A stretch of 64,000 nucleotides of DNA from Sphaerisporangium sp. TRM90804 (GTDB lineage: Bacteria > Actinomycetota > Actinomycetes > Streptosporangiales > Streptosporangiaceae). This document shows, piece by piece, positions 10,204 through 35,827 of the stretch (positions within the stretch are counted from its first letter, which is position 1; the number at the start of each line of letters is the position of its first letter). The stretch spans positions 1 through 64,000 of the forward strand of contig NZ_JARWAC010000021.1 in NCBI RefSeq assembly GCF_029846175.1, given 5' to 3'. The notes beneath the pieces were generated by a model. That model saw only the letters and a list, made by a program, of their open reading frames with translations, made no database searches and was not told the origin of the DNA. Made by a program: the position numbers and the translations under genes.

Positions 10204-11670
10204 GTGGGAGTCGGCGAGAGGGCCGTGGTCGCCGGGGGCGAGGCGGCCGAGACCGGCGCGGCGGTGCCGGGACGGGCACGCCTTCCCGGGTGGGCGCGGC
10301 GGTACCGCTCCCGGGCGATGGCCGCCGACCTCGGGTGCGGGCTGGTGGCGGGCGCCGCGGCGGTGCTGGTGCGGTTCGGGGAGGTCTCGCCGCACGTCAC
10401 GCCGTACCTGCTGCTGAGCCTGGTGCTGCCGGCCCTGTGGGTCGCGGTGGTGGGGCTCAACCGCGCCTACGAGGCGCGGCTGGTGGGCGTGGGGTCCGAG
10501 GAGTTCCGGCGGATCACCCAGTGCGGGTTCCTGCTCACCGCCGGGGTGGCGATCGCCGCCTACGTGACCAAGACCGATGTCGCCCGCGGGTACGTCGTCC
10601 TGGCGTTGCCGCTGATGACGCTGCTCACGCTCGCCTGCCGGTACGCCCTGCGCCGCAGGCTGCACGCCATGCGGGCGAGGGGCTCGTGCATGCGGCGCGT
10701 CGTGGCGGTCGGGCACCGGGCGGCCGTCGCCGACCTCACCCGCCGTTTCCGCCGGGAGCGCTACCACGGCATGGAGATCGTCGGGGCGTGCCTGCCGCGC
10801 GACGACGCCGCCGGGGAGGTCGAGGGCGTCCCGGTGCTCGGCGACTTCACCGACGTCCCGCTGGTCGTGGGCCAGGCCGGCGCCGACACCGTCGCCGTCC
10901 TGGCCTGCCCGGAGCTCGACGGCACCGCGCTGCGCCGCCTGGCGTGGCGGCTGGAGAAGACCCGCACCGACCTGGTGGTCGCGCCCGCCCTGATGGAGGT
11001 CGCGGGCCCGCGCACGACCATCAGGCCCGTGGCGGGCCTGCCGCTGCTGCACGTCGAGCATCCCGAGCTGGCCGGCCTGAGGCAGTTGCTGAAGAACGCC
11101 TTCGACCGCGTCGTGGCCGCCTGCGCGCTGGCCGTCCTGGCGCCCCTGCTGGCCGGGCTCGCGGTGGCGGTGCGGGCCACGAGCCCCGGGCCCGCGCTGT
11201 TCCGGCAGACCCGCGTCGGCAAGGACGGCGTGGAGTTCACCATCTACAAGCTGCGCACGATGGCCCGCGGCGCCGAGTGCCGGCGGGTCCACCTCGTGAG
11301 CGACCAGGACGGCCTGCTGTTCAAGATCAGGGACGATCCCCGGGTCACGCCGCTGGGCGGCCGCCTGCGGCGCCACTCCCTCGACGAGCTGCCCCAGCTC
11401 GTCAACGTGCTGCTCGGCCACATGTCCCTGGTCGGACCGCGCCCCCCGCTGCCCGAGGAGGTCGCCGGGTACGGCGACGACGTCCGCAGGCGTCTGGTGG
11501 TCCGGCCGGGGATGACCGGCCTGTGGCAGGTCAACGGCAGGTCCGACCTCTCGTGGGAGGAGTCGGTCCGGCTGGATCTCCGTTATGTCGAGAACTGGTC
11601 GCTCACGCTTGATCTTCAAATTCTCTGGAAGACCTGGTCCGCCGTGGCGCGAGGGTCGGGTGCCTACTAA
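10204..11670 (+). CDS. Polyprenyl-phosphate sugar-1-phosphate transferase (WbaP/CpsE type)
   Basis: Initiating enzyme of exopolysaccharide assembly; it loads a sugar-1-phosphate onto undecaprenyl phosphate at the membrane. In this 488-aa protein, hydrophobic segments between about residues 45 and 165 form the N-terminal membrane bundle and a Rossmann-like CoA_binding_3 region follows. The bacterial sugar transferase domain occupies about 297-485 (KNAFDRVVAACALAVLAP, TSPGPALFRQTRVGKDG, YKLRTM, DELPQLVNVLLGHMSLVGPR, RPGMTGLWQVNGRS). GTG 10204 is chosen because GGAGG (10194-10198) lies five bases before it; an upstream GTG at 10192 lacks a site. It opens the glycan locus at 10-35 kb and is followed by the sulfate-activation genes. 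The transferred sugar is not predictable from sequence. Confidence 0.92.
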   Translation: MGVGERAVVAGGEAAETGAAVPGRARLPGWARRYRSRAMAADLGCGLVAGAAAVLVRFGEVSPHVTPYLLLSLVLPALWVAVVGLNRAYEARLVGVGSEEFRRITQCGFLLTAGVAIAAYVTKTDVARGYVVLALPLMTLLTLACRYALRRRLHAMRARGSCMRRVVAVGHRAAVADLTRRFRRERYHGMEIVGACLPRDDAAGEVEGVPVLGDFTDVPLVVGQAGADTVAVLACPELDGTALRRLAWRLEKTRTDLVVAPALMEVAGPRTTIRPVAGLPLLHVEHPELAGLRQLLKNAFDRVVAACALAVLAPLLAGLAVAVRATSPGPALFRQTRVGKDGVEFTIYKLRTMARGAECRRVHLVSDQDGLLFKIRDDPRVTPLGGRLRRHSLDELPQLVNVLLGHMSLVGPRPPLPEEVAGYGDDVRRRLVVRPGMTGLWQVNGRSDLSWEESVRLDLRYVENWSLTLDLQILWKTWSAVARGSGAY

Positions 11671-11713
11671 CTTTGGGCGCAGTGGACTCAGCGCAGGCAT
11701 CGGGAAGGGCATC

Positions 11714-12490
11714 GTGACCATTCGTGACGACCACGCACTCGCCGCAGATCTCGCCACCGAGGCCGGCACGCGCCTGCTCGATCTCCGCTCCAGCATGGGG
11801 CACGCCGACTCCGCCGCCCTGCGCAAGGCCGGCGACCGCGAGGCCCACCTCTACCTGACCGAGTCGCTGGCCCGCCTGCGCCCGAGCGACTGCGTGCTGT
11901 CGGAGGAGGGCACGCACGACGAGCGGCTCGACCCGCGCCGCGCCACCGCCGAGCGGGTGTGGATCATCGACCCGCTCGACGGCACCCGCGAGTTCGGCGA
12001 GGAGGGCCGTGCCGACTGGGCGGTCCACGTCGCCCTGTGGCAGCGGGGCGACGACGGCGGCGCCCTGGCCGCCGGTGCCGTGGCGCTCCCGGCCCAGGGG
12101 AAGACCCTCACCACCGCCGCGCCGCCCACGCTCGCCGCGCCCCGCGAGGGGCGCGTCCGCATCGCCGTCAGCCGCACCCGTCCCCCGGAGTTCGTCAGGA
12201 AGCTGGCCTTCCTCATCGGGGCCGATCTGGTGCCGATCGGCTCGGCCGGCGCGAAGATCGCCGCCGTGCTCACCGGCCAGGTCGAAGCATACGTTCACGG
12301 GGGCGGGCAGTACGAGTGGGACTCTGCGGCGCCGGCCGCCGTGGCGCTCGCCGCGGGCGCCCACGCCAGCCGCATCGACGGCTCGGCGCTGGCCTACAAC
12401 CAAAGCAACCCCTCGCTGCCGGATATTGTTGTCTGTCTACCGGATCTGGCGCCGACGCTGCTCGCCGGCATCCGTGAGGTCCACCGTTGA
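11714..12490 (+). CDS. cysQ: 3'(2'),5'-bisphosphate nucleotidase (PAP phosphatase)
   Basis: Inositol-monophosphatase-fold enzyme of 258 aa that dephosphorylates PAP, the inhibitory by-product of sulfotransferases, and/or PAPS. Metal-binding motifs are GDREAH (about 40), the EEG motif, WIIDPLDGTREFGE (about 83-96) and WDSAAPAAV (about 202). Start GTG 11714 is preferred because upstream in-frame codons overlap the preceding gene. It is 35 bp upstream of cysD. The grouping with cysD and cysN and with three sulfotransferases in the same region suggests that it serves PAPS-dependent sulfation. Confidence 0.9.
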   Translation: MTIRDDHALAADLATEAGTRLLDLRSSMGHADSAALRKAGDREAHLYLTESLARLRPSDCVLSEEGTHDERLDPRRATAERVWIIDPLDGTREFGEEGRADWAVHVALWQRGDDGGALAAGAVALPAQGKTLTTAAPPTLAAPREGRVRIAVSRTRPPEFVRKLAFLIGADLVPIGSAGAKIAAVLTGQVEAYVHGGGQYEWDSAAPAAVALAAGAHASRIDGSALAYNQSNPSLPDIVVCLPDLAPTLLAGIREVHR

Positions 12491-12525
12491 CCATCGCCGC
12501 GCTATAGCTTCCGGAGGAAGAGGAG

Positions 12526-13440
12526 ATGCTGCAGAGCGACTACACCACGTCGCAGCTTGACGTGCTCGAGGCCGAGGCCATCCACATCATGCGTGAGGTG
12601 GCCGCGGAGTTCGAGCGCCCGTGTCTGCTCTTCTCCGGCGGCAAGGACTCCATCGTCATGCTGCGCATCGCCGAGAAGGCTTTCTGGCCCGCCCCGATCC
12701 CCTTTCCCCTGATGCACGTCGACACCGGCCACAACTTCCACGAGGTCATCGACTTCCGTGACCGCCGGGTGGCCGAGCTGGGCGCCCGTCTCGTCGTGGC
12801 GTCGGTGCAGGCGTCCATCGACGCCGGGCGGGTGGTGGAGGAGACCGGGCGGCGCGCCAGCCGCAACCGCCTGCAGACCACCACGCTGCTCGACGCCATC
12901 GAGGAGCACGAGTTCGACGCCGTCTTCGGCGGCGCCCGCCGCGACGAGGAGAAGGCCCGCGCCAAGGAGCGCGTGTTCTCCTTCCGCGACGAATTCGGCC
13001 AGTGGGATCCGAAGAACCAGCGGCCCGAGCTGTGGAACCTCTACAACGCCCGCATCCGCAAGGGCGAGCACATCCGGGTCTTCCCGCTGTCCAACTGGAC
13101 CGAGCTCGACATCTGGGACTACATCCGGCGCGAGCGCATCGAGATCCCCTCGATCTACTTCGCCCACACCCGCAAGGTGTTCGAGCGCGACGGCATGCTG
13201 CTCGCCGAGCACGAGGTCGTCAACCGCGGCGACGACGAGCCGGTCTTCGAGACGGTCGTCCGCTACCGCACCGTCGGCGACATGACCTGCACGGGCGCCG
13301 TGCAGTCCGCCGCCGCCACCGTCGAGGAGATCATCTCCGAGATCGCCGCCACCCGCATCACCGAGCGGGGCGCCACGCGCGCCGACGACCGCACGTCCGA
13401 GGCCGCCATGGAGGACCGCAAGAAGGAGGGCTACTTCTGA
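12526..13440 (+). CDS. cysD: Sulfate adenylyltransferase subunit 2
   Basis: Catalytic PP-loop subunit of ATP sulfurylase, making APS from sulfate and ATP. This 304-aa protein has the PP-motif FSGGKDSIVML (36-46), LMHVDTGHNFHEVI, GGARRDEEKARAKER and NWTELDIWDYI. The ATG has GGAAGAGGAG before it. The stop codon overlaps the start of an 18-codon reading frame that leads into cysN. No cysH or sulfite reductase follows, so APS made here is more likely destined for PAPS and sulfation than for reduction; this is an inference. Confidence 0.96.
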   Translation: MLQSDYTTSQLDVLEAEAIHIMREVAAEFERPCLLFSGGKDSIVMLRIAEKAFWPAPIPFPLMHVDTGHNFHEVIDFRDRRVAELGARLVVASVQASIDAGRVVEETGRRASRNRLQTTTLLDAIEEHEFDAVFGGARRDEEKARAKERVFSFRDEFGQWDPKNQRPELWNLYNARIRKGEHIRVFPLSNWTELDIWDYIRRERIEIPSIYFAHTRKVFERDGMLLAEHEVVNRGDDEPVFETVVRYRTVGDMTCTGAVQSAAATVEEIISEIAATRITERGATRADDRTSEAAMEDRKKEGYF

Positions 13441-13496
13441 TGGCCCCGACGATCGCGCCTCCCGTCCGCCGCACGACCGATGGAGAGCAGTTTTGA
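13440..13496 (+). CDS. 18-codon frame bridging cysD and cysN (minicistron or displaced CysN N-terminus)
   Basis: An ATG overlapping the cysD stop (TGATG at 13438-13442) opens an 18-residue frame, MAPTIAPPVRRTTDGEQF, whose TGA again overlaps the cysN ATG (TGATG at 13494-13498). The peptide resembles the short variable leader that many actinobacterial CysN proteins carry before LRFATAGSVDDGKST. Joining it to CysN would need a -1 shift at the run of four T (13491-13494). It may be a coupling minicistron, a programmed frameshift or a one-base sequence error. It is too short to be certain that it is translated. Confidence 0.45.
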   Translation: MAPTIAPPVRRTTDGEQF

Positions 13497-14758
13497 TGGA
13501 CATCCTGCGTTTCGCCACCGCGGGCTCGGTCGACGACGGCAAGTCGACGCTGATCGGCCGGCTGCTCTTCGACTCGAAGGCGATCTTCGAAGACCAGCTC
13601 GAAGCCGTGGAACGTACTAGCCGCGACCGCGGCACCGAGTACACCGACCTGTCGCTGCTGACCGACGGCCTGCGGGCCGAGCGCGAGCAGGGCATCACGA
13701 TCGACGTCGCCTACCGCTACTTCGCGACGCCGAAGCGGAAGTTCATCATCGCCGACACCCCGGGGCACATCCAGTACACCCGCAACATGGTGACCGGCGC
13801 CTCCACGGCCGACCTCGCGATCGTCCTGATCGACGCGCGCAAGGGCGTGGTGGAGCAGTCGCGCCGCCACGCGTTCCTGACGACCCTGCTGCGCGTGCCG
13901 CACGTCGTGCTCGCGGTGAACAAGATGGACCTCGTCGACTACTCGCGGGAGCGTTTCGACGAGATCCGCGAGGAGTTCACGGCGTTCGCCGCCAAGCTGA
14001 ACATCCCCGACCTGACCTTCATCCCGATCTCCGCGCTGCACGGCGACAACGTGGTCTCCCGCTCGGAGAACATGCCGTGGTACCAGGGCACGTCCCTGCT
14101 GCACCACCTGGAGAACCTGCACATCGCCTCCGACCGCAACCTGGTCGACGTGCGCTTCCCGGTGCAGTACGTCATCCGCCCGCAGCGGGCGACCGACCCC
14201 GCGTTCCACGACTACCGGGGGTACGCCGGCCAGATGGCGGGCGGGGTGCTCAAGCCGGGCGACGAGGTCCTGCACCTGCCGTCCGGTCTGACCACGCGGG
14301 TGGCGGGCATCGACACCTTCGCCGAGCCGGTGGAGGAGGCGTTCCCCCCGATGTCGGTCACCCTGCGGTTCGAGGACGACATCGACATCTCGCGGGGCGA
14401 CATGATCTGCCGCCCCAACAACAGGCCGCAGGTCGCCCAGGAGATCCAGGCCATGGTGTGCTGGATGGCCGACGGCGCGAAGCTGGCGGCCCGCACCAAG
14501 CTGGTCATCAAGCACACCACGCGCACGGCGCGCGCCCTCGTCCGCGACCTGCACTACCGCCTGGACGTCAACACCCTGCACCGCGACGAGGCCGCGACCG
14601 ATCTCGGCCTGAACGAGATCGGCCGGGTGTCCCTGCGCGTCACCCAGCCCCTGTTCGTCGACGACTACGCCAGAAACCGCCTCACCGGCGGTTTCATCCT
14701 CATCGACGAGGCCACCAACACGACGGTGGCCGCCGGCATGATCGTCGAGGCCCGCTGA
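13496..14758 (+). CDS. cysN: Sulfate adenylyltransferase subunit 1 (GTPase)
   Basis: Regulatory GTPase of ATP sulfurylase; GTP hydrolysis drives APS formation by CysD. The 420-aa EF-Tu-like protein has the P-loop GSVDDGKST (10-18), EREQGITIDVAYR, DTPGH (about 88) and NKMD (about 142), followed by two beta-barrel domains. It carries no APS kinase fusion at the C-terminus; cysC is a separate gene at 34.5 kb. It begins immediately after the 18-codon bridging frame. A hairpin follows 27 bp after the stop. Confidence 0.96.
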   Translation: MDILRFATAGSVDDGKSTLIGRLLFDSKAIFEDQLEAVERTSRDRGTEYTDLSLLTDGLRAEREQGITIDVAYRYFATPKRKFIIADTPGHIQYTRNMVTGASTADLAIVLIDARKGVVEQSRRHAFLTTLLRVPHVVLAVNKMDLVDYSRERFDEIREEFTAFAAKLNIPDLTFIPISALHGDNVVSRSENMPWYQGTSLLHHLENLHIASDRNLVDVRFPVQYVIRPQRATDPAFHDYRGYAGQMAGGVLKPGDEVLHLPSGLTTRVAGIDTFAEPVEEAFPPMSVTLRFEDDIDISRGDMICRPNNRPQVAQEIQAMVCWMADGAKLAARTKLVIKHTTRTARALVRDLHYRLDVNTLHRDEAATDLGLNEIGRVSLRVTQPLFVDDYARNRLTGGFILIDEATNTTVAAGMIVEAR

Positions 14759-18423: not shown

Positions 18424-18449
18424 CCCCTCAGGATCCACGGTGGTTCACC

Positions 18450-25180: not shown

Positions 25181-26140
25181 TCACCCTGACGTCCGGCGAC
25201 GGGGTATCGGGACGCATCCGCCCTCGTGGGCCACACGGGTCAGGTCGTGGATGCGGGTGATCTGGGCGGGGGTCAGGCCGCAGGCGAGGTCGGTGAGGGC
25301 CTTGCGGGAGTCCATCGGGCGGAACGCCGTCCGGGACAGGCCGGTGCGGACGAAGGCGTGGCGGGACGGCTCGCCCGGGGCCGTGCAGGCGCCCTCGACA
25401 CGGCGTCGCGCCCGATCTGTCCAGGTGAGGCCGCACCAGGCGTAGAGGTCGCGGTAGGCGGCGACGGGGTCGGCGGCGAGGTGCTCGTAGGAGACGAGGC
25501 GTATGGCCGGGTGCCGCTCGGCGAGGGCGCCGGCGACCGTCCTGGCCACCTTCCACAGGGCGGCGGCCTTGGTGAGGCGGTCCTGCGAGCCGACCAGGGG
25601 GCGCAGGGCCCACATACACGGATGATCGCGGGTGAGGAGCGGCTGTTCCAGCAGCTCGTGGAAGTAGACCGTCCAGCCGAGCCGCTGCCAGCTCGCGACG
25701 AAGGACACCGGGTCCCTGACGAGCAGGACGACGCGGCATCCCAGCCGTTCGGCGAACCATCCGGCGGAGAACAGCGCGAACGGGTCGTCCAGCAACGCCC
25801 GACGCCCCCGGAGCCTTCCGGCGGTGAACGCCGAGCCGTTCCTCACCAGGCGGGCGAGCCCGCCCGCCGAGCGGGCGCCCCGGCTCAGCTCGGCGGCGTA
25901 CCGGTAGCGCAGGGCGACCGTGTCGGAGAAGGCCCGCAGCCACGGGTGCTCGTTGTCGCGGCAGATGTACTGGAAGCGGTGGCTCACCGTCGCGTCGAGC
26001 ACCCCCGGAGAACGCCCGGGCGGGCGCTGGGGGTTGAGCGGCTCGTTGACGTAGACCACCTCGCCCCCGGCCGCCAGCATCCGCCCCGCCCAACTCGTCC
26101 CACTACGCGGCAGCCCCGTCACGAGGATGGGCCCGCTCAT
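25181..26140 (-). CDS. Sulfotransferase family protein
   Basis: A 319-aa sulfotransferase. The 5'-phosphosulfate loop is at the N-terminus (ILVTGLPRSGTSWAGRML, about 4-22) and the 3'-phosphate motif is VVLLVRDPVSFVASW. Further blocks are YEHLAADPVAAYRDLYAWCG and a C-terminal FRPMDSRKALTD segment. ATG 26140 is supported by GGGAGGGACG immediately upstream; the open frame further upstream is not coding-like. It lies downstream of the flippase gene on the same strand (190-bp gap with no other feature). It is a second PAPS-dependent transferase of the locus; acceptor unknown. Confidence 0.88.
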   Translation of the reverse strand: MSGPILVTGLPRSGTSWAGRMLAAGGEVVYVNEPLNPQRPPGRSPGVLDATVSHRFQYICRDNEHPWLRAFSDTVALRYRYAAELSRGARSAGGLARLVRNGSAFTAGRLRGRRALLDDPFALFSAGWFAERLGCRVVLLVRDPVSFVASWQRLGWTVYFHELLEQPLLTRDHPCMWALRPLVGSQDRLTKAAALWKVARTVAGALAERHPAIRLVSYEHLAADPVAAYRDLYAWCGLTWTDRARRRVEGACTAPGEPSRHAFVRTGLSRTAFRPMDSRKALTDLACGLTPAQITRIHDLTRVAHEGGCVPIPRRRTSG

Positions 26141-26329: not shown

Positions 26330-27925
26330 TCACACCTCTCCGTTCGTTCGTGTCGTGGCCCCCGAAGGGCGGGCGGGGTGGTCGCCGTGGCGCGCGGTCG
26401 CGCGGCGCAGGGCTGGGCGGCTGTGGGGGCCGAAGGGGCTCAGGCCGTACCAACGGGCCAGTTGGAGCAGGGGGAGGGCGTTCTTCGTCAGGACGCCCGC
26501 CGACCAGCCGAGCGTGGCGCCCAGGGCGCCGTGGGACGGCACCAGGGAGAGGTCGACGGCCACGGTGACGGCGATGGCCAGCAGGACGTTCACCGTGCTG
26601 GCGGTCGTGTGCCCGGCGGCGATCAGGACGACGTCGACCATGCCGCAGGCCGTGGCCGCCATCATCGTCACGGCCAGCACCGCCGCCACGGCGGCGCCCC
26701 GCCGGTAGCCGTCCCCGAACACGCCGAGCACCCAGGGCGCCAGGGCGGCGTACCCCAGCCAGACCGGCCAGGTGACGGCGACCAGCCACATCGTGGCCGT
26801 CTGGTGGAGCCTGCGGGCCGAAGGCAGGTCGCCCCGGGCCATGGCCCGCACCAGGCGCGGCTGAACGGCCTGGGCCAGACCCTGGTTGACGAGCTGACCG
26901 ACCACCTTGAACCGGGTGGCCGCGGTGTAGACGGCGGCCTGCTCCGGCCCGGCCAGCACGCCGACGACCACGATGTCGAGCCGCTGGAACACCGCCTGAA
27001 CGGCACCGCCGACGGCACGCGGCCCCGCATAGCGCCAGAACTCCGTGACACTCACCGGAACGGGCCGGGTGCGACGCCCCCACACTCCCGCACGGCCGAC
27101 GGCGCTCGGCCATGCGGGCCGCCAGCATCCGGCGACGGCGTCCAGAACCGCTCCGGTCCGGCGTCCTCGCACGGCCGTGCGGGCGGACGGGGGAGGGGCG
27201 GTCGTCCGGTCGTACTTGGGGAGGGGGCTGGCCGGTGCTGACCCGAGGGGGCCGGGTATTCGGCGGTGTAGCCACCGGGCGCTGAGGAGGAGGACCGGCA
27301 GGGCGGGGAGGGACCAGGCGGCCGGGAGCAGCCAGGCCCCCGTTCCCGTGAGGCCGGTGAGAGCCAGTGTCCCGATCAGGACGAGTTGCGCGCCCGGTTG
27401 CAGCAGGCCGCCGAGCAGCGTGGTCGGCCGCATCGTGCCGAAGCCCCGCGTGGCGGCGACCAGGGTGTCCGCGCACGCGAGCACCGGAAGCGCCACCCCG
27501 AGCACCCTCAGCGTGTCGGCGAGCGCGGCCTCGCCGGTGTGCGGGGCCGGGCGGGGCAGCCCGGGGCCGGTGGGCGGGGTGGTGCCGGGCAGCAGCGCCG
27601 CCGCGATCGCGTCCGCGTGGACGGTGACGAGCACGGCGGCGGCCACGGAAAGCGCCACGACCGGCACCAAAGCGGCCCGCAGGTGGCGGGCGGCGCCGTG
27701 GTACCCGTGGTCGCGGGCCCGGGCGATGAAGTAGATCAGCCCGTTGCCGGCGTCCAGCCTGACGACGCCCGCGATCATGAGGCACAGCGTGGTCGCGGTG
27801 AAGAAAGCCCCCGCGGTACGGGCGTCCAGGCCGCGGGTGATCGCCACCACCACGAGGAACTGCGACCCGGCGGCCACCACCGCACCGGCCACCCCGGCGA
27901 CGCCCCCCCTGACCAGAGACCTCAT
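26330..27925 (-). CDS. Wzx-like polysaccharide flippase / exporter
   Basis: A 531-aa multi-spanning membrane protein of the MOP/MATE-like polysaccharide transporter type, with about 12 hydrophobic helices (GGVAGVAGAVVAAGSQFLVVVAITRGLDARTAG at the start, then AVQAVFQRLDIVVVGVLAGPEQAAVYTAA in the second half). It would flip undecaprenyl-linked repeat units to the outer face. The central cytoplasmic loop (about 245-310) contains a duplicated 29-residue segment (GRRT, WR, AVG blocks). ATG 27925 is chosen because it starts at the first helix; the frame runs open upstream through the 75-bp repeat region. Confidence 0.85.
   Translation of the reverse strand: MRSLVRGGVAGVAGAVVAAGSQFLVVVAITRGLDARTAGAFFTATTLCLMIAGVVRLDAGNGLIYFIARARDHGYHGAARHLRAALVPVVALSVAAAVLVTVHADAIAAALLPGTTPPTGPGLPRPAPHTGEAALADTLRVLGVALPVLACADTLVAATRGFGTMRPTTLLGGLLQPGAQLVLIGTLALTGLTGTGAWLLPAAWSLPALPVLLLSARWLHRRIPGPLGSAPASPLPKYDRTTAPPPSARTAVRGRRTGAVLDAVAGCWRPAWPSAVGRAGVWGRRTRPVPVSVTEFWRYAGPRAVGGAVQAVFQRLDIVVVGVLAGPEQAAVYTAATRFKVVGQLVNQGLAQAVQPRLVRAMARGDLPSARRLHQTATMWLVAVTWPVWLGYAALAPWVLGVFGDGYRRGAAVAAVLAVTMMAATACGMVDVVLIAAGHTTASTVNVLLAIAVTVAVDLSLVPSHGALGATLGWSAGVLTKNALPLLQLARWYGLSPFGPHSRPALRRATARHGDHPARPSGATTRTNGEV
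27004..27177. repeat. 2 x 87-bp in-frame duplication inside the flippase gene
   Basis: Units at 27004-27090 and 27091-27177 align along their length (shared GCCGACGGC, CGGCC, CGCCAG, GAAC and CG-x-C blocks). On the minus strand they encode GRRTGAVLDAVAGCWRPAWP and GRRTRPVPVSVTEFWRYAGP, each followed by an AVG-x-A block. The period is 29 codons, so frame is kept. The copies are more diverged than the GT2 repeats. Confidence 0.75.
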
Positions 27926-27950
27926 GACGCCGCCGCGAACCAGCCAGCGG

Positions 27951-28175
27951 TCTGAGGCGTGCTGACCGGGTGGCACGGAGCGACGGCCCCGATCGAGCGT
28001 CCCGCTGTGCACTCCCAGTGGCGACTCAGGGGCGCCATGACGGGGTGGTGCCCGGCGGCTGTTCGGGCGGGGTGGCGGGCTGGGGAGTGCCGGGTGGGGG
28101 TCAGAGGCGCCATGACGGGGTGGTGTCCAGCCATGCTTCTAGCTGGGTGTCCCAGGGCTCGAAGTGGGCGGACAG
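27951..28175. repeat. 3 x 75-bp array spanning the 3' end of a sulfotransferase gene
   Basis: Copies start at 27951, 28026 and 28101. The first about 25 bases of each unit are best conserved (core GGCGCCATGACGGGGTGGTG in copies two and three, weaker in copy one). The 28101 copy contains the last codons and stop of the sulfotransferase gene. The other two fill the gap before the flippase. The unit is a multiple of three. Confidence 0.65.
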
Positions 28176-28958
28176 GCGGCGGCGGAGGGAGACGGGCATG
28201 TCGGCGGGGCGGGGGCGGGCGTTGTGGTGCTCGAAGAGCGGGTCGCCGAGGCGGGGGAGGCCCAGGAACTCCAGAACCTGGTCGTACACGGGCTCCGGCG
28301 TCCGGAAGAACCGGCCGCTGTCGACGACGAGCAGGCGCAGGCGGCCCACCTGGCGTTCCAGTTCCGCCAGTTGGCAGGCGTAGCGGCCACGGGCGAGGTA
28401 GGCGTGGTGGCGGTGCGCGTGGCTGGTGGCGTGCGGGTCGTTCGCCAGCCGCTCGTGCTCCCCGGCCAGGCGGTGCTCCTCCAGCTCGACGGCGCGCTCG
28501 AACGACGGCTCGGGCTCGAACCCCCGCGCCACCTCGTGCGCGTGCGCCGAGTACGCCCGCTCCACCGGGTCGCGCACCAGCACCACCAGCTTGACCCCCG
28601 GCAGGTCGCGCGCGATGCGGGCCGCCGCCAGCGGATGGAACATGTAGTACGGCGACGACTCGAAGGCCGGCGGCCGGGTGCCGTACCGCCGTTCGAGCCG
28701 GTTGGCGGTCGCCTTCAGCGGGAAGTGCGCGCGATACCACGCCGGCCCCCTGCCGTAGGCCACGTCGAAGTAGTGGACGCCCTTGCGCAGCGCGGGCTTG
28801 AGCACCAGCGGGTGCCGGGCGAGCGTCCGGTACAGGGACGTCGTGCCGCAGCGCTGAGCGCCGACGATCAGAAAGGACGGCAGCAGCCGCCCGCCCACGG
28901 TCAGCCGCCCGGCCGTGTAGGAGACGACGTGGGCGGACCTTTTAACGGTGCGGTTCAC
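28101..28958 (-). CDS. Sulfotransferase (heparan-sulfate-type P-loop)
   Basis: A 285-aa sulfotransferase of the Sulfotransfer_1/3 type: LPSFLIVGAQRCGTTSLYRTL with the phosphosulfate loop, KGVHYFDVAYGRG, ESSPYYMFHPLAAARIA, VKLVVLVRDPVERAYSAH (3'-phosphate motif), and LLVVDSGRFFRTPEPVYDQV followed by a LEFLGLP block. GTG 28958 is chosen because AGGAGGT lies seven bases before it; another in-frame GTG at 28994 overlaps the upstream kinase-like stop. It is the third sulfotransferase of the locus, apparently co-transcribed with the kinase-like gene. Its last codons lie within a 75-bp repeat unit. Confidence 0.9.
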   Translation of the reverse strand: MNRTVKRSAHVVSYTAGRLTVGGRLLPSFLIVGAQRCGTTSLYRTLARHPLVLKPALRKGVHYFDVAYGRGPAWYRAHFPLKATANRLERRYGTRPPAFESSPYYMFHPLAAARIARDLPGVKLVVLVRDPVERAYSAHAHEVARGFEPEPSFERAVELEEHRLAGEHERLANDPHATSHAHRHHAYLARGRYACQLAELERQVGRLRLLVVDSGRFFRTPEPVYDQVLEFLGLPRLGDPLFEHHNARPRPADMPVSLRRRLSAHFEPWDTQLEAWLDTTPSWRL

Positions 28959-28990
28959 CGGGGGGACCTCCTGACGGAAGGTGGGGCGGT

Positions 28991-30091
28991 TCACAGAAGA
29001 GCCTCCTGCCGGTCGGCGAGGGGGGTCAGCCACTCGGATGGGGGGCCGAGGGGGTGGTGGCCGTCCTGCTCGTGCCGGTCGGCGAGGGTGATCAGGTAGT
29101 GGAGGGCGGTCGAGCGTGCCTGGTGCGCGGGCACCGCGAACGGCTCCAGCGTGCGCGCCGACTGCGCGAGGCACGCCTGGGCGGCGATCGGCGGCGGCAT
29201 GCGGCGCAGGGCCCGCTGGAAGGAGTGGTGGAGCGCGTCGAAACCGATGGGGACACCGGTGGCGAACCGCTCCCAGTCCCACACCAGCAGGCGGCCGTCC
29301 GGAGCGGCGGCCATGTTCCACGGCGCGAAGTCACCGTGCCAGGCGTGGTTCCACGACGAGGCGGTGGCCGTGTTCGGTGGCGCCCCATGCCGGTCCGCGC
29401 TCCGGGAGGCGGTGACCGGCCAGGCGTGAGCGCCGACCGGCAGGGCGGCTCGCCCGAGGTGGTCTCCCAGAAGGTCCTCGGACGCGGTGGTGCCGGGGAT
29501 GGCGACGGGGGCGAGAGCGGCGATCTCCCGGACGGCTCGGGTGAGCAGGGAGGTGGGGATGCTGGTTCGGCCGAGGCGGAGGCGGACGGGGAGGGGAACG
29601 GGCGGCACCGGTAGGGGAGAGAGGGCCAGGACCTCTAGCTCGTTCCACACGCCGTGGTGGAGCACTGCCGGCGGGGTGACGATCTTCAGGGGGGTGCCGG
29701 CCAGTGCGTCCAGCGTCGCGCCCTCGTGGCGGACGAGTGCTCGCGAGCGCTCGGTGTGGCCGATCTTGACGAATGCGAGCAGCCCGCCGTCCGTTCCGCG
29801 CACCTCCAGGACGGGCTTGCGGTTGGCCCGGCGCGCCGGGCGTATGTGCGCGGTGGCCCTGACCCGCCGCCCGAACACCTCGCTGAGATACGCCTCTATC
29901 GTGCCCGCCCCCGCCGGGAGCCGCCTGCGCCCGGGCAACCACCGCGAACGCGGCACCAGACGACGGGGCAGCAGCCTGCTCGGCACCACCGCATATGAGG
30001 CGCGTCTCGCCGCGGGGCCCGGTGCGGCGGCGGGATACAGCAGGGGGATGACCTCGTCCAGGTAGCGCAACCGAGCGCGGAAGTCCCTCAT
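28991..30091 (-). CDS. Phosphotransferase (APH/choline-kinase-like fold)
   Basis: A 366-aa kinase-like protein. The Brenner-type catalytic motif WHGDFAPWNM (251-260) and the metal-binding WDWERF (271-276) are present. Lys109 in LAFVKIGHTERS and Glu123 in RHEGATLDAL are plausible ATP-site residues. The first about 60 residues are Arg/Pro-rich and not typical of APH proteins. In a polysaccharide operon it could phosphorylate a sugar or lipid head group; antibiotic resistance is unlikely from context. The ATG lies in the first of two 77-bp tandem units, and the stop overlaps a possible sulfotransferase start. Confidence 0.78.
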   Translation of the reverse strand: MRDFRARLRYLDEVIPLLYPAAAPGPAARRASYAVVPSRLLPRRLVPRSRWLPGRRRLPAGAGTIEAYLSEVFGRRVRATAHIRPARRANRKPVLEVRGTDGGLLAFVKIGHTERSRALVRHEGATLDALAGTPLKIVTPPAVLHHGVWNELEVLALSPLPVPPVPLPVRLRLGRTSIPTSLLTRAVREIAALAPVAIPGTTASEDLLGDHLGRAALPVGAHAWPVTASRSADRHGAPPNTATASSWNHAWHGDFAPWNMAAAPDGRLLVWDWERFATGVPIGFDALHHSFQRALRRMPPPIAAQACLAQSARTLEPFAVPAHQARSTALHYLITLADRHEQDGHHPLGPPSEWLTPLADRQEALL

Positions 30092-30197
30092 GGGCGACCC
30101 GGCGTGGAGGGATGAGGCGGGGGGATGATCTTGTCCGGGGGGTACGGCCGTGCGCGGAGGTCGTTCATGGGCGACCCGGCGTGGTGGCGGGGCTCGG
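30044..30197. repeat. 2 x 77-bp duplication of the ligase-stop / kinase-start junction
   Basis: Unit A (30044-30120) contains the start of the kinase-like gene and unit B (30121-30197) the stop of the ligase-like gene plus an abortive copy of the kinase start. Both contain TCATGGGCGACCCGGCGTGG. On the minus strand unit B reads MNDLRARPYPPDKIIPP against the real MRDFRARLRYLDEVIPL, then runs to a stop in the same TPGRP context. The period is not a multiple of three, so the abortive copy cannot extend the real gene. Confidence 0.82.
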
Positions 30198-31757
30198 CCA
30201 GGTCGCTTGGGCGGTGAGGGCCGGGCCGGGGGTTTGCGGTGACCGGGCCGGTGGTCGCGAGACCCCGCCCGGGTGTCGCGGGGGCTCGGCCGGTGGGCGG
30301 GGGTCGGAGGGTGGGGGGTTGCGCCAGAGGGTGGCGTAGGAGATCAGGTAGAGGGTGAGGGCGGAGATCAGGCCGTCGTAGATGAACATGTAGAGCAGGG
30401 CCAGGAGCATCACGAGCGTTCCGGCCTGGCCGATGGGGGTGCGGTCGCGGCGGAAGCGGCGCACCGCGCCGGCGAAGAAGGCGACGTACAGCAGGGCGCC
30501 GGTGAAGCCCTGGGTGATGAGCAGCAGCCAGAGCTGGCCGTCGCTGCCCAGCGGGGGGTGGCCGCACTCGTGGCACCACGTGGTCCTGCCGGTGGTGATC
30601 GACCGGTAGTTGCCGTGGGCGTTGCGGGTGTTGCCGTACCCGATCACCGGCGAGTGGGTGGCGGCCTTCAGCGTGCTCATCACCGTGAACGCCCTGATCT
30701 GGTTACTGTGCGGCTTCTCCAGGCGCTGCGCGACCATCGTGGTGAGCGGCCCCGCGAGCAGGGCCGGCACCGCCACCAGCAGCACCGCGCAGACCGTGAG
30801 GGCCGTCCGTGGGCGCGCCCGCAGCACGGCGCGGGCGGCGCGCGGCCCGGCCCGCACGATGACGTACACCACGGACACCGCCAGCCCGATCCACAGGCCC
30901 CGGTTGAGCGAGTAGACGACCGGGACGGCTGCCAGCCCGACGGCGGCCACGCAGACCAGCCGCCGCGCCGGCCCGCCGTACGTCCACCAGCCGACGACGA
31001 ACCACACCAGCAGCACCGAGAGGTTGCCGCCCCAGGCGTTGGCCCACTCGAACGGCGCCTCCGGGCGGGGCGCGGCGTGCCCGAGGACGTGCTGCATCTG
31101 CGCGGCGGTCGGGTGGACGAGGTTGCGGACGAAGGAGTTGCCGCTGACCCAGCCGGGCAGCAGCGTCTCCATGGGCGAGGTGAACTCGAACCGCGGCGCG
31201 AGCACGCCGAGCAGCCCCCCGGCCACGGTGACGAGGAACAACGCCCCCAGCATCCGCACGAGGGAGCGCTGCGGCAGCTCCCGCTCGGTCAGGTTGGCCA
31301 GGTACAGCACCACGACCGCGAGCGAGACGTAGACCAGGCCGCGCATGACGTACCCGGCGATTCGGCCGGTGGACAGCGCCCCGTAGGTGCCGGGAGGCGT
31401 GTCGCCCAGCATCGCGGCGCTGACCAGATACCCCGCGAGCAGCAGCGCCCACAGCCCCATGCCCTTCGGCACGGCCACCGGACGCCTGCGCCACAGCACC
31501 ACGGCCATGGGCACCGCGAGCACGACGACGCAGAGCCCCCCGAACCCGAGCGCCCACCAGACCGGGTACCCCACCAGCAACCCCGCGATCGGCCACGCCG
31601 CCGGTGCCGGCAACGCCCGGACGATCCGCCCGGGCGGCCTGCGGACGCGCAGCTCCCGGGTGGGGAACTCCCTCGTGGCGGGGAACTCCCAGGTGGACGC
31701 CTCCCAGGCCGGGACGCCCTGAGCGGGTGCCGCGGAACCCGGCGGAAGGGGGGTCAT
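30165..31757 (-). CDS. O-antigen ligase / Wzy-like polymerase
   Basis: A 530-aa polytopic membrane protein with about ten to twelve helices. The Wzy_C/WaaL-type signature is VVYSLNRGLWIGLAVS, followed by the large external loop (QIRAFTVMSTLKAATHSPVIGYGNTRNA, then CHECGHPPLGSDGQLWLLLITQG). Such enzymes polymerise or ligate lipid-linked repeat units outside the membrane. The first about 50 and last about 50 residues are Pro/Arg-rich cytoplasmic tails. The ATG overlaps the Wzz-like gene stop by 4 nt. Its stop originally probably overlapped the kinase-like start before the 77-bp duplication. Confidence 0.88.
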   Translation of the reverse strand: MTPLPPGSAAPAQGVPAWEASTWEFPATREFPTRELRVRRPPGRIVRALPAPAAWPIAGLLVGYPVWWALGFGGLCVVVLAVPMAVVLWRRRPVAVPKGMGLWALLLAGYLVSAAMLGDTPPGTYGALSTGRIAGYVMRGLVYVSLAVVVLYLANLTERELPQRSLVRMLGALFLVTVAGGLLGVLAPRFEFTSPMETLLPGWVSGNSFVRNLVHPTAAQMQHVLGHAAPRPEAPFEWANAWGGNLSVLLVWFVVGWWTYGGPARRLVCVAAVGLAAVPVVYSLNRGLWIGLAVSVVYVIVRAGPRAARAVLRARPRTALTVCAVLLVAVPALLAGPLTTMVAQRLEKPHSNQIRAFTVMSTLKAATHSPVIGYGNTRNAHGNYRSITTGRTTWCHECGHPPLGSDGQLWLLLITQGFTGALLYVAFFAGAVRRFRRDRTPIGQAGTLVMLLALLYMFIYDGLISALTLYLISYATLWRNPPPSDPRPPAEPPRHPGGVSRPPARSPQTPGPALTAQATWPSPATTPGRP

Positions 31758-32959
31758 GGGGTCGGGCGGGGGAGTTCGGCGGGGGAGGGGAGCAGGATCA
31801 CGCCCAGGGCGGCGGTGTCGGTGCGGCGGAGTTGGCGGACGGCTTGGGCCAGTTGCTTGGAGCGGGCGGCGCGGCTCTCGACCAGGAGCAGGGCGGCGTC
31901 GGCGCGGGCCGAGTGGTCGGTGCGGACCCAGATGGGCGCCAGGCCGGTGAGCGCGACGCGCAGGTCGTCGGCGATGGGCTCGGGGTCGGTGCCGGGGGTC
32001 ACGCTCCGGACTAACAGCTCGCCGCCGTCGCGCAGGTGCCGGGCGACGGCCATGGCCAGCTCGCGCAGCTCGCGGGCGTTCTCACCCTCGCAGAGCACCG
32101 GCAGGCCGGTCAGCCGCTCGACGTCGGCGGCGGTGCGGAGCCGGGTGTCGACGCGGTCGCGCAGGACGGCGGCCCCGACGCCGGCCAGCAGGCCGAGGAA
32201 CAGCCCGCTGCCGAGGTAGAGCGGCAGGCTGGGCGCGGTGGGCGCGCCCGGCGGGCGGGCGTCGCTGATCACGGCGCCCGGGGTGACGGCGACGGTCTTC
32301 AGCGCGTCGTACCGGGCGGTGAGGGTGTGGATCTGCCGGTTCAGGACGTTCTGCCGCTGCGCGGCGATCGTGCGCGCGGCGGACCCCTGCGGGTGCCGCG
32401 CCAGGCCGGCGACGGTGGCGGCGAGCGTGGCGTTCACCTCGCGCAGCTTGGCGGTGAACATCTTGAGCTGCGCGGCGAGCGCCTGGGTGGCCGTGGCCCG
32501 CCGGTTGGCGAGGTAGGCCTTGGCGAACGCCTGCGCCCCCGCCGCCGCGCTGATGGGGTCGCGCGCCGTGTACGACACCGCGAGGACCGCCGAGTTCGGC
32601 GGCACGCTGACGGTGACCTGGCCGCGCATCGTCTCGGGATCGCCGGCCTTGAGGCTCCGCGCGGCTCGCGCGGCGACCACGGCGGAGCGGGCCACGTGGG
32701 CCTCGGTGTCGAGGTTGAGCGGTTCACGCTGGCGGGGGGTGGTCTGGTTGAGCTGATCCTGCACGCTGGTCGGCGCCACCAGGACCTCGGCGGTCGCGGT
32801 GTAGGACGGCGGGGTGGTGGCGAGCGCCACACCGCCGCCGCAGACGCCGGCGAGCACGCACCCGGCGACCGCCACGCGCCGCCGCCGCAGCAGCGAGCCG
32901 ATGTCGGCCAGCTCGCGCCCGTCGGCCGGGCCTGGGACTGCGGACGCCGGCTGGCTCAT
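31754..32959 (-). CDS. Wzz-like polysaccharide copolymerase
   Basis: Chain-length regulator of 401 aa. The first transmembrane helix is at about 29-47, the extracytoplasmic Wzz domain follows (PSYTATAEVLVAPTS, coiled-coil stretches around 150-225), and the second helix is at about 246-266. A C-terminal about 130-residue cytoplasmic domain (LTGLPVLCEGENARELRE, APIWVRTDHSARADAALLLVES) looks like a BY-kinase fold without a Walker A loop or Tyr tail, so it should be catalytically dead. It is the first gene of the minus-strand export operon; the ligase-like gene follows with ATGA overlap. Confidence 0.87.
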   Translation of the reverse strand: MSQPASAVPGPADGRELADIGSLLRRRRVAVAGCVLAGVCGGGVALATTPPSYTATAEVLVAPTSVQDQLNQTTPRQREPLNLDTEAHVARSAVVAARAARSLKAGDPETMRGQVTVSVPPNSAVLAVSYTARDPISAAAGAQAFAKAYLANRRATATQALAAQLKMFTAKLREVNATLAATVAGLARHPQGSAARTIAAQRQNVLNRQIHTLTARYDALKTVAVTPGAVISDARPPGAPTAPSLPLYLGSGLFLGLLAGVGAAVLRDRVDTRLRTAADVERLTGLPVLCEGENARELRELAMAVARHLRDGGELLVRSVTPGTDPEPIADDLRVALTGLAPIWVRTDHSARADAALLLVESRAARSKQLAQAVRQLRRTDTAALGVILLPSPAELPRPTP

Positions 32960-33427: not shown

Positions 33428-34498
33428 TTGCGCAAGATAACGGGAATATGGGTCTTGGGTGTCGGGGTCGCCGCCGGGGGCGCGCTGCTCGTCTACACCG
33501 TCGCGTCGGCGAACCCGCGGCCCGGCATGATGGCCCGCGACCGCACGCCCGGCGCCGCCATCCCGAACGGCGTCCCGGGCTGCGTGGCCACCGCCAAGCT
33601 CATCCCGAGCTGCGGCGCCTGGTGGGGCGTGGCGCCCGACGTCTTCGGCGGGCGGCCCCCCGCCCGCGCCCTGGCCGCCGCCGAGAAGCGCATGGGCCGC
33701 AAGGCCGACATCGTCCACGTCTACCACCGGGGCGGCGAGCCGTTCCCCACGCCCGAGGAGCGGCAGCTCGCCAAGACACGGCTGCTGCTCATCAACTGGA
33801 AGCCGTCCGTGCGCCACACCTGGGCGCAGATCGCCGGCGGCGCGATCGACCGCCGCATCGACCGCGTCGCCGCCTCGCTCAGGCGCATGCTGCCCGACAG
33901 GTTCTTCCTGACCGTCCACCACGAGCCCGAGAACGACGTCCGCCCGGGCCACGGCTCGGGCATGACGGCCGACGACTACGCCTCGATGTACCGCCACGTG
34001 GTGCTGCGCCTGCGTGAGCGGGGGGTGCGCAACGCCGTCACCGTGATGACGTACATGGGCGCGCCCAACTGGGCCGCCAAGCCGTGGTTCGAGCGCCTCT
34101 ACCCCGGCGACGACGTCGTCGACTGGATCGGCCTCGACCCCTACGCCGACCGCAGGGTCGACGACTTCGCCACCCTCGTCGACAAGGTGCGCCGCGACCA
34201 CGCCGCCTGGCCGGGCTTCTACCGCTGGACGCAGGCGCGGTTCCCCGGCAAACCGATCATGGTGGCCGAGTGGGGCGCGTTCGAGCGGCCCGACGACCCC
34301 GCCTTCAAGGTCGAGTTCTTCAACTCCGTGCGCCGCCAGATCCGCGGCTACCCGCAGATCAAGGCGCTGGTGTACTTCGACTCCCCGATCGCGCCGCGCG
34401 GCGACACCCGCTTCGACGCCACCGCCGCCGCGGGGCGCGCCTTCACCGAGCTGGCCCGCGCCCCGTACTTCAGCTCCACCCCCGTGCCCGGCCGGTGA
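33428..34498 (+). CDS. Secreted GH26-like glycoside hydrolase
   Basis: A 356-aa protein with an N-terminal signal-anchor (ITGIWVLGVGVAAGGALLVY, about 4-23) and a TIM-barrel with a GH26-like pattern. The acid/base Glu is in VHHEPEN and the nucleophile Glu in VAEWGAFERP, with DWIGLDPYADRR between them. Family activities include beta-mannanase and related endo-glycosidases. In an exopolysaccharide locus it probably trims or releases the locus's own polymer (inference). It starts with TTG 33428 behind an AAGGGGG site. It is divergent from the Wzz operon and convergent with cysC. Confidence 0.82.
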   Translation: MRKITGIWVLGVGVAAGGALLVYTVASANPRPGMMARDRTPGAAIPNGVPGCVATAKLIPSCGAWWGVAPDVFGGRPPARALAAAEKRMGRKADIVHVYHRGGEPFPTPEERQLAKTRLLLINWKPSVRHTWAQIAGGAIDRRIDRVAASLRRMLPDRFFLTVHHEPENDVRPGHGSGMTADDYASMYRHVVLRLRERGVRNAVTVMTYMGAPNWAAKPWFERLYPGDDVVDWIGLDPYADRRVDDFATLVDKVRRDHAAWPGFYRWTQARFPGKPIMVAEWGAFERPDDPAFKVEFFNSVRRQIRGYPQIKALVYFDSPIAPRGDTRFDATAAAGRAFTELARAPYFSSTPVPGR

Positions 34499-34509
34499 CC
34501 CGGCCGGGC
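34486..34509. terminator. Convergent terminator hairpin (GH26-like / cysC)
   Basis: Perfect 10-bp inverted repeat GCCCGGCCGG (34486-34495) and CCGGCCGGGC (34500-34509) around a TGAC loop that contains the GH26-like stop codon. It lies 11 bp before the end of the opposing cysC gene, so it can terminate both. Confidence 0.65.
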
Positions 34510-34519
34510 CCAGGAGGGC

Positions 34520-35827
34520 TCAGCGCACCCAGCCGCCGGAGGTCAGCAGGCCCATGACCGCGCTCACGGCGTGCTCGACGGGCATGCCGGTGGTGTCGAC
34601 GGTCAGGTCGGCGTCGTCGGGCTCCTCGTAGGGGTCGGAGATGCCGGTGAACTCCGGGATGACGCCCGCCCGCGCCTTGGCGTACAGGCCCTTGCGGTCG
34701 CGCCGCTCGCACTCCTCCAGCGGGGTGGACACGTGGACGAGCACGAACTCGGCGCCCACGCTCTCCACCATGTGCCGCACCTCGTCGCGGGTGGACGCGT
34801 ACGGGGCGATCGGCGCGCAGATCGCCAGGCCGCCGTGCCGGGCGACCTCGGCCGCGACGAAGCCGATGCGGCGGATGTTCAGGTCGCGGTCGGGCTTGGA
34901 GAACGTGAGCCCGGCCGACAGCAGGCGCCGTACGACGTCGCCGTCGAGGTAGGTGACGGTGCGGCTGCCGCTTTCGAGCAAGGCGTCGTGCAGGCCGCGG
35001 GCGATCGTCGACTTGCCCGACCCCGACAGCCCGGTGAGGAACACCACCACGCCGCGCCGGTGCGGCGGCCCCGGCAGCGTGACGGGCTCGGGCCCGGCGA
35101 GGTGCTCCACGGCCCCGTAGGCGGTGGCGACGTGCTCGCGCAGCTCCAGGTCGATCTCGGGCTCCCGGGGCGCCAGGGGCACCACGGCGACCCGGGTGGC
35201 GGGCGGCAGGCCGTCGCGGGCCTTGAGCGCCGCGCGCACCACGGCGGGGCCGCCGTCGCCGAACGCCAGCGGCAGCAGCAGGATCGTCGCGCCCAGCTCG
35301 CGGGCCGTGGCTGCGACCTCCTCCAGGTTGTCCAGCGGCCCGCGCATGGTGACGGCGAGCACCGGGCCGGCGCCCAGTTCCTCGCACACCTGCGCCGGGG
35401 TGAGCCGCAGCCGCGCGAACGGCCCGTGCTCGGGCACGCCCAGCGAGGCGACCGGGCCCGCGACCTGGCCGTCGGCGGTGCGCTCGGTGACCGTCACCAC
35501 GGCCACGGCGGCCCCCTCGGGGTCGCGCAGCACGAGCTCCTGCCCGGCGGACACCGGATGGTCGTGCGGCACCATCAGCGTCACGGGGTCGGGCCAGGGC
35601 GTGCCGTCGGCCAGGCGGCCGTTCTCGACGACCGAGGCGGCCTCGGCGGAGTCGAGGAAGCCGGTCAGCGGGTGGAAGGCCCCGGAGAGCAGGAGCTCGA
35701 GATCGGCGAGCTCGCGGGCGTCGGGAGTCCACTCGGGAGCCGGCGCGGCGCTCGGCGGGGTCGCGGTGGGCTGCTCAGCGTTTCGCACCGGGACAGGATA
35801 TTGCGCCGGAGGCGGCGGGAGCGGCAT
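34520..35827 (-). CDS. cysC: APS kinase with degenerate ATP-sulfurylase N-terminal domain
   Basis: A 435-aa protein. The C-terminal domain (about 258-430) is a complete APS kinase: Walker A GLSGSGKST (266-274), YLDGDVVRRLL, DLNIRRIGFVAAEVARHGG and APYASTRDEVR; it makes PAPS from APS. The N-terminal about 250 residues match the PUA-like domain of ATP sulfurylase (SGAFHPLTGFLDS, NGRLADGTPWPDPVTL). In the catalytic part, however, the expected QTRNPLHRAHE motif reads VTMRGPLDNLEE (159-170), losing both His, so it cannot adenylylate sulfate. CysDN at 12.5-14.8 kb would supply APS. ATG 35827 has no clear ribosome site; a leaderless start or the in-frame GTG at 35788 is possible. Confidence 0.92.
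   Translation of the reverse strand: MPLPPPPAQYPVPVRNAEQPTATPPSAAPAPEWTPDARELADLELLLSGAFHPLTGFLDSAEAASVVENGRLADGTPWPDPVTLMVPHDHPVSAGQELVLRDPEGAAVAVVTVTERTADGQVAGPVASLGVPEHGPFARLRLTPAQVCEELGAGPVLAVTMRGPLDNLEEVAATARELGATILLLPLAFGDGGPAVVRAALKARDGLPPATRVAVVPLAPREPEIDLELREHVATAYGAVEHLAGPEPVTLPGPPHRRGVVVFLTGLSGSGKSTIARGLHDALLESGSRTVTYLDGDVVRRLLSAGLTFSKPDRDLNIRRIGFVAAEVARHGGLAICAPIAPYASTRDEVRHMVESVGAEFVLVHVSTPLEECERRDRKGLYAKARAGVIPEFTGISDPYEEPDDADLTVDTTGMPVEHAVSAVMGLLTSGGWVR

Follow-up and report, generated by a model that had tools for sequence, protein, structure and literature searches.

The window analyzed here, a stretch of 64,000 nucleotides (positions 1 to 64,000 of the forward strand of contig NZ_JARWAC010000021.1) from the 8.3-Mb draft genome of Sphaerisporangium sp. 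TRM90804, contains a gene cluster that lies between the housekeeping genes pth and mfd. The closest named relatives of this locus come from Sphaerisporangium, a genus of the family Streptosporangiaceae. The cluster combines Wzx/Wzy-type polysaccharide genes with three sulfotransferases (ST1–ST3) and with enzymes that form adenosine 5′-phosphosulfate (APS) and 3′-phosphoadenosine 5′-phosphosulfate (PAPS) and remove 3′-phosphoadenosine 5′-phosphate (PAP). Its gene content points with high probability to a sulfated polysaccharide coat made with a sulfate donor of its own. The features are as follows, in window coordinates.

10108..11670, forward strand: WbaP/EPS-type polyprenyl glycosyl-1-phosphate transferase, the initiator; start perhaps at 10318 (PF02397, E 1.5e-62; TIGR03025 above cut-off)
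11585..12490, forward strand: CysQ-like 3′(2′),5′-bisphosphate nucleotidase for PAP removal; start uncertain (PF00459, inositol-phosphatase family)
12526..13440, forward strand: CysD, small subunit of ATP sulfurylase, for APS formation (TIGR02039, 460.6 bits, above cut-off)
13493..14758, forward strand: CysN, GTPase subunit of ATP sulfurylase (TIGR02034, 572.6 bits, above cut-off)
20638..22026, forward strand: ST1, PAPS-dependent sulfotransferase (PF13469, E 5e-18; alignment with relatives)
21987..23210, forward strand: GT2 glycosyltransferase (PF00535)
23536..24453, forward strand: WecG/TagA/CpsF (GT26) glycosyltransferase (PF03808, E 1.5e-56; TIGR00696 above cut-off)
25181..26140, reverse strand: ST2, sulfotransferase (PF13469); the open frame reaches 26296, with the probable start at 26140
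26330..28012, reverse strand: Wzx-like flippase (matches to MatE, Polysacc_synt and MurJ below cut-off; conserved position)
28101..28994, reverse strand: ST3, heparan-sulfate-type sulfotransferase (PF13469/PF00685)
28991..29938, reverse strand: APH-like kinase (HGDxxPWN and WDWE motifs; alignment)
30165..31757, reverse strand: Wzy polymerase (PF04932, Wzy_C, E 3e-8; 10 hydrophobic segments)
31754..32959, reverse strand: Wzz chain-length regulator (PF02706, E 2.6e-6; two hydrophobic segments)
33428..34498, forward strand: GH26 glycosidase with N-terminal hydrophobic anchor; start perhaps at 33455 (PF02156, E 1.3e-5)
34520..35788, reverse strand: APS kinase with an N-terminal pseudo-ATP-sulfurylase half, for PAPS formation (PF01583, E 1.4e-56)
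35869..37607, forward strand: extracytoplasmic function (ECF) sigma factor and the next gene, optional neighbors (matched in 24/80 and 23/80 family loci)
37617..38348, reverse strand: S-adenosylmethionine methyltransferase adjoining mfd (PF08242/PF08241; in 73/80 family loci)

An earlier sequence-only reading of this stretch had listed WbaP, GT2, WecG, Wzx, Wzy, Wzz, GH26 and three sulfotransferases together with a complete PAPS cycle. A profile search of the frames of the region backs nearly every gene of that list at the position claimed for it, with strong models for CysDN and the APS kinase and weaker ones for Wzx and CysQ. The inventory had missed two conserved members, the APH-like kinase and the methyltransferase. 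As that reading had also said, no CysH (PAPS reductase) or sulfite reductase occurs among the frames scanned at 10108–38366.

The enzymes of the cluster look active by their sequence motifs. Strict patterns for the 5′ and 3′ PAPS-binding motifs match 60 and 59 of the 61 ST1 proteins, 70 and 71 of the 71 ST2 proteins, and 67 and 77 of the 78 ST3 proteins; such patterns undercount, as for the first ST3 motif (67/78) and for the GH26 pattern (69/78). The best solved match of ST3 is 3rnl (E 3e-16), followed by heparan 3-O- and N-sulfotransferases (E 1e-12 to 1e-8). In the kinase-like protein, the HGDxxPWN and WDWE motifs are found in 78 of 80 relatives. Pfam APH is matched by 3 of 14 members (best 5.6e-5) and not by the window protein itself, which is weakly similar to the polysaccharide kinase-methyltransferase WbdD (E 0.018). 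Its structural model has a mean predicted local distance difference test score of 78, with residues 152–195 below 50. Tandem repeats with an 84-bp period run in frame through parts of ST1 (21464–21730) and GT2 (22259–22445); the resulting Gly-rich, in-frame insertion in ST1 is absent from 12 aligned relatives.

The GH26 protein matches solved GH26 enzymes (E 6e-11). Glu-157 and Glu-272 are invariant in 13 aligned rows and align with a glutamate pair of the Clostridium thermocellum enzyme, which we take to be its catalytic pair. The family assignment made from sequence holds, but the protein looks anchored rather than freely secreted, judging from a hydrophobic N-terminal segment in the window protein and a lipobox-like cysteine in 18 of the 24 relatives shown (counted by eye). 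We rejected GH26 alone as a marker of the system after examining nine genomes with weaker GH26 matches, using profile models, each built from the window protein and no more than 40 complete orthologues. In three of them (G023, G064, and G131), additional genes of the cluster were present, sulfotransferases among them; G197 had Wzy, GT2, and WbaP matches beside GH26 and no sulfotransferase match; the other five had, besides GH26, either nothing or a GT2 match of 26–27 bits.

The APS kinase, described before simply as CysC, consists of two halves. The C-terminal APS kinase half is intact, with a P-loop in 75/75 homologues, and the N-terminal half is ATP sulfurylase-like and carries HxxH or GRDH in 0/75. 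The corresponding site reads TMRGPLD in 67/75. We therefore rejected a working bifunctional PAPS synthase (ATP sulfurylase/APS kinase). The best solved match is the Thiobacillus denitrificans enzyme (PDB code 3cr8, E 6e-91), which, like the Entamoeba histolytica enzyme, is described in the accessible text of the source as having a sulfurylase-like domain without sulfurylase activity (PMC13213808). The window protein shares the two-domain layout with a non-catalytic sulfurylase-like half, but differs from this type in that the half is shorter and lacks both motifs throughout the homologues, and in that its cluster also codes for CysDN as the source of APS.

The locus is a single inherited cluster that is interrupted in this genome by an insertion. 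To describe its gene order, we used 80 loci of the family, chosen from 117 relatives from other species with Wzy as the query; loci picked in this way gauge synteny and not prevalence, and five of them (L057–L061) are from Sphaerisporangium genomes that are also in the genus set. The ten genes from ST2 to mfd keep the same order and strands in 64 of the 67 loci that are at least 21 kb long, so that the synteny of the sulfotransferases with Wzx, Wzy, and Wzz that the sequence-only reading had proposed to look for is present. Wzz lies beside Wzy in 78 of the 80 loci. Upstream of ST1, cysN is found on the same strand in 52 of the 61 loci that hold ST1, with a median gap of 230 bp (less than 1 kb in 48 of the 52); the remaining nine, five of them Sphaerisporangium, have merely 0.2 to 3.2 kb of sequence on the cysN side. 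In Nonomuraea gerenzanensis the set is contiguous from pth to mfd, and gaps from WbaP to mfd never exceed 0.9 kb. This family-wide synteny rules out a chance neighborhood.

Within the genus, orthologues of WbaP (at 81–85%) and of Wzy are each present in nine of the ten other Sphaerisporangium genomes searched. All nine Wzy-bearing genomes have the ST1–GT2–WecG and the ST2-to-Wzy blocks, and eight have Wzz–GH26–APS kinase–methyltransferase–mfd; the ninth contig stops there. WbaP and Wzy share a contig, 18 to 37 kb apart, in eight of the ten genomes with both (own genome included), and are on separate contigs of fragmented assemblies in the other two. Direct reading shows cysQDN adjoining WbaP in the window and in congeners G001 and G007. 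For twelve cluster proteins, with incomplete or short proteins left out, pairwise distances correlate with those of Mfd at r 0.53 (GT2) to 0.82 (APS kinase), values without a permutation test that fit mainly vertical descent. The ratio of nonsynonymous to synonymous polymorphism (pN/pS), taken over eight or nine Sphaerisporangium genomes without our own, is 0.23–0.49 in eleven genes.

The region had been described as one locus, which holds for the core but not for the genes at 14958–20511 and 24591–25085. These are matched in 0 of the 80 other-species loci, the interval between cysN and ST1 being visible in 52 of them, and we rejected them as cluster members. The ∼6 kb between cysN and ST1, made up of unrelated genes, are a later local insertion, because they are absent from these loci and because the N. 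gerenzanensis set is contiguous. Two insert genes (16553–17152 and 17390–18226) have 44% and 63% matches in G007, past its cysN. The ECF sigma factor and the next gene, considered as a core regulator, were rejected on their low frequency in the family loci and are probably outside the core.

One Sphaerisporangium genome, G008, has an eroded copy of the cluster, which by its sequence is a natural deletion. Its site on contig C42 keeps cysQDN, ST1, the kinase, Wzz, GH26, the APS kinase, the methyltransferase, and a partial WbaP-like stretch. Wzy, Wzx, ST2, ST3, GT2, and WecG are unmatched in the 40 kb around the site, and Wzy is unmatched in the whole genome, a draft assembly whose contig is unbroken across the site. 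The deletion indicates that the polymer is probably dispensable.

The supply of PAPS in this genome appears separate from sulfate assimilation. The single strong APS kinase of the genome (194 bits) lies inside the cluster, the second match reaches only 21.5 bits, and a Sat-type sulfurylase has no match in the genome. An APS kinase of 187–194 bits is found in all eleven Sphaerisporangium genomes searched (own included), five of which also have minor matches of 21–25 bits. Five proteins of the genome belong to PF01507, namely three CysD and two CysH. The linked CysH and sulfite reductase of an assimilatory sulfate reduction cluster are lacking at the locus and lie elsewhere: both CysH adjoin sulfite reductases on other contigs (G000:C10 and G000:C1), and one of these two sets has its own cysDN. 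Both CysH carry a CC pair and a CxxC motif. This CC/CxxC signature marks APS reductases, enzymes that act on APS itself and for which an APS kinase is dispensable. Because the assimilatory reductases are of this type and should use APS, the PAPS of this genome looks reserved for sulfation. As a counter-case, the sequence-only reading had named a cysQDN that related genomes keep with reductases and not with sulfotransferases; what we found is cysN beside ST1 in the family and, in this genome, reductases on other contigs.

Three further observations concern sulfur genes. The two separate sulfite reductase–CysH sets of this genome are more than assimilation would seem to need. A third cysDN pair (G000:C3:272900-275200) lies beside a major facilitator superfamily transporter, an FAD/ALO oxidase, and a thiamine-pyrophosphate enzyme, on a contig without a match to the PF13469 sulfotransferase family. 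A different genus of this GTDB family has its APS kinase gene followed by a gene for a TauE/SafE-family exporter (L222:82-2060).

Of 394 genomes sampled from the class, 77 have relatives of the Wzy profile; these include 35 of the 41 listed genomes from the GTDB family of this genome. We examined 40 regions around Wzy in 39 of those 77 genomes. With a line at 240 bits, which was set after the scores were seen, an ST3-type gene is nearby in all 29 regions at or above it (median distance 2.5 kb; 10 families) and in 4 of the 11 regions below it; the kinase is nearby in 28 of the 29. From the density of our own genome, ∼0.03 sulfotransferases would be expected per 20 kb, or about one region in 40. 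Distances of Wzy correlate with those of ST3 (r 0.88) and of the kinase (r 0.92; 0/2000 permutations each, n 32), and part of this correlation is shared ancestry. In a draw across the phylum, 16 of 396 genomes match Wzy at 1e-40, and sulfotransferase matches are near Wzy in 12 of the 13 regions examined from other classes. An APS kinase is present in 41 of 42 module-bearing genomes (of 44; G429 and G657 were left out) compared with 28 of 38 hand-picked genomes free of Wzy matches (p 0.002, uncorrected for relatedness). The Wzy locus of the cluster also occurs in Nonomuraea, Microbispora, Microtetraspora, and Herbidospora, genera that to our knowledge form no typical sporangia. We rejected a sporangium-only role on this presence.

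The same genome has a second locus ∼200 kb away (G000:C14:231403-232800 and G000:C14:236000-246000) with an initiator, a glycosyltransferase, an APH kinase, a sulfotransferase, and a Wzy. The trio of kinase, sulfotransferase, and Wzy consequently occurs twice in this genome.

That the sequence-only reading knew of no described actinomycete locus of this composition was fair, yet wps-1 of Actinoplanes missouriensis, interpreted as a sporangium matrix system, is a close counterpart (PMC13390465, AEM June 2026; this and the other reports on known systems cited here were accessible in part). By published domain names and gene order, not protein sequences, wps-1 together with AMIS_7390 shares with our cluster GT2, GT26/WecG, two sulfotransferases (one of heparan type), GH26, a methyltransferase, Wzx, a kinase-like protein, Wzy, Wzz, and an adjacent gene of the SAT/APS-kinase family, and the core order Wzx–sulfotransferase–kinase–Wzy–Wzz is identical. 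Of a wps-1-type system, the window has Wzx (weak), Wzy, and Wzz together with the GT2 and GT26 transferases; two or more sulfotransferases from different families, among them a heparan type, in the same order; and GH26, the methyltransferase, and the adjacent SAT/APS-kinase-family gene. As named in the accessible text, wps-1 includes neither an initiator nor cysQDN nor a third sulfotransferase, and it contains a DUF4262 gene. New relative to its plan are the initiator, cysQDN, the third sulfotransferase, the conservation over many Streptosporangiaceae genera, and the occurrence in genera beyond sporangium formers.

Single deletions of wpsA, C, G, H, I, J, and K lead to squashed sporangia; deletion of wpsE gives mixed sporangia, that of wpsF distorted, joined sporangia with few spores, and that of wpsD no defect (PMC13390465). 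Deletion of AMIS_7390 “unexpectedly” caused severe sporangium defects, and the authors tie the SAT/APS-kinase family to sulfur amino acids (PMC13390465). The loss of PAPS for WpsB and WpsH would explain this phenotype more simply if the kinase half is active.

Sulfated polysaccharides have been shown in other bacteria. Synechan of Synechocystis 6803, from the xss cluster, has sulfate demonstrated in the polymer (PMC8205485) and shares a Wzx/Wzy/PCP system and two sulfotransferases; it differs in the cyanobacterial host, eight glycosyltransferases, and its own regulators, and PAPS genes, GH26, and a kinase go unmentioned in the accessible part of that report. The capsule of Vibrio sp. KMM 8419 was shown to be sulfated, and PAPS genes with sulfotransferases were called a hallmark of clusters of this kind (PMC11641403). 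There, cysC, cysN, cysD, and three sulfotransferase genes lie within the polysaccharide cluster, in common with ours, but the host is Gram-negative, export is by an ABC transporter, and the locus has 80 genes. The window resembles both in having sulfotransferases within a polysaccharide cluster, here with PAPS synthesis genes as in Vibrio. A further case is listed for Cobetia (PMC11766843). We found no such locus for Streptosporangiaceae in the open literature, a search that left most subscription papers outside.

We consider it highly likely that the locus is of the Wzx/Wzy type, directs the synthesis of a sulfated polysaccharide exposed at the surface, and supplies its own PAPS. The joint role in a sulfated polymer, proposed by the sequence-only reading, is supported by the observed gene families, key motifs, synteny, single strong APS kinase, and separation from assimilation; from these we infer the product, the order of steps, the substrates of kinase and methyltransferase, and the place and role of the polymer. 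WbaP would initiate the repeat unit on undecaprenyl phosphate, and GT2 and WecG would extend it to about three sugars. CysDN would form APS, which the kinase half of the protein at 34520–35788 would convert to PAPS, allowing ST1, ST2, and ST3 to sulfate the lipid-linked unit in the cytosol, with CysQ removing PAP. Modification of the unit or the chain is the probable task of the APH-like kinase and the methyltransferase. Wzx would then flip the unit, Wzy polymerize it, and Wzz set the chain length, and the anchored GH26 may trim or release the polymer.

A sulfated glycolipid or short oligosaccharide instead of a polymer would find precedent in the lipo-oligosaccharides of rhizobia and mycobacteria, to which bacterial sulfation extends (PMC8205485). 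We regard such a product as very unlikely and favor a polymer, because Wzy and Wzz are conserved: Wzy is kept in nearly all the other Sphaerisporangium genomes, and Wzz stands beside it in almost every family locus (where Wzy itself is present by construction, being the query). It is scarcely credible that cysQDN and the APS kinase are assimilation genes beside a polysaccharide locus by chance, even though CysDN belongs to the usual assimilation enzymes, no other protein among the twelve compared from the cluster is as conserved as CysD (mean distance 0.08), and all six own-family genomes listed without this Wzy keep an APS kinase. The genome has its two other sets of sulfite reductase with CysH, one of them with cysDN, whose CC/CxxC reductases should, by general knowledge, do without an APS kinase, and cysN adjoins ST1 across genera. 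Equally improbable is a polymer that is mainly phosphorylated or otherwise modified, with sulfotransferases that act on secondary metabolites or proteins. The APH-like kinase is linked to Wzy as tightly as ST3 and weakly resembles WbdD, as described above, but three different sulfotransferases are inside the cluster, and deletion of wpsH has the phenotype of polymerase loss, squashed sporangia, though that of wpsB is mild (PMC13390465).

Several points weigh against a sulfated polysaccharide with a dedicated PAPS supply. Sulfate in the polymer of these organisms is so far a prediction from genes. Wzx is, with CysQ, the weakest call: it stays under every Pfam cut-off (MatE, E 2e-4) and shows five hydrophobic segments in a crude scan, so that its identity rests on position and conservation, and the best NCBIfam model of CysQ, TIGR01331, is far under its cut-off (94 versus 229 bits). 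The congener G003 has a second APS kinase of 94 bits. Module-bearing G580 (89% complete) shows no APS kinase, and the six listed own-family genomes without this Wzy keep an APS kinase, so that the enzyme does not serve this role exclusively. GH26 genes are also found without the module. In A. missouriensis, the wpsB deletion leaves normal-looking sporangia with ten-fold fewer spores, and AMIS_7390 is not co-activated with wps-1 (PMC13390465). Finally, linkage of the APS kinase is rare outside the core of the Streptosporangiaceae: of the 42 module-bearing genomes, only nine have one at most 30 kb from a Wzy. This rare linkage indicates that the private PAPS set is a trait of Streptosporangiaceae and some others, and that the core of sulfotransferase and Wzy is wider.

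Papers of 2021 and 2026 attribute bacterial sulfated polysaccharides, in their accessible parts, to cyanobacteria only or to these and a few marine bacteria (PMC8205485, PMC13390465, PMC13125312). The conserved Streptosporangiaceae cluster and the relatives of its core, which reach into further families and classes of actinobacteria, would extend them to common soil bacteria. The cluster also suggests why deletion of AMIS_7390 has its unexpected effect, and is a source of new sulfotransferases and of an enzyme that makes PAPS, for use in polymer engineering. On a broader view, to which we give an even chance, the core would be an ancient, phylum-wide actinobacterial machine for sulfated glycans, with a dedicated Wzy clade, a heparan-type sulfotransferase, and a sugar kinase whose joint product is a repeat unit carrying both sulfate and phosphate; the version of the Streptosporangiaceae would have acquired its own PAPS cycle, and the sulfurylase half of its APS kinase would have decayed into a scaffold. 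If this is true, heparin-like polymers of bacterial origin would have a major source in soil actinomycetes that has gone unnoticed, and would serve in the coats of spores or hyphae as well as in sporangia.

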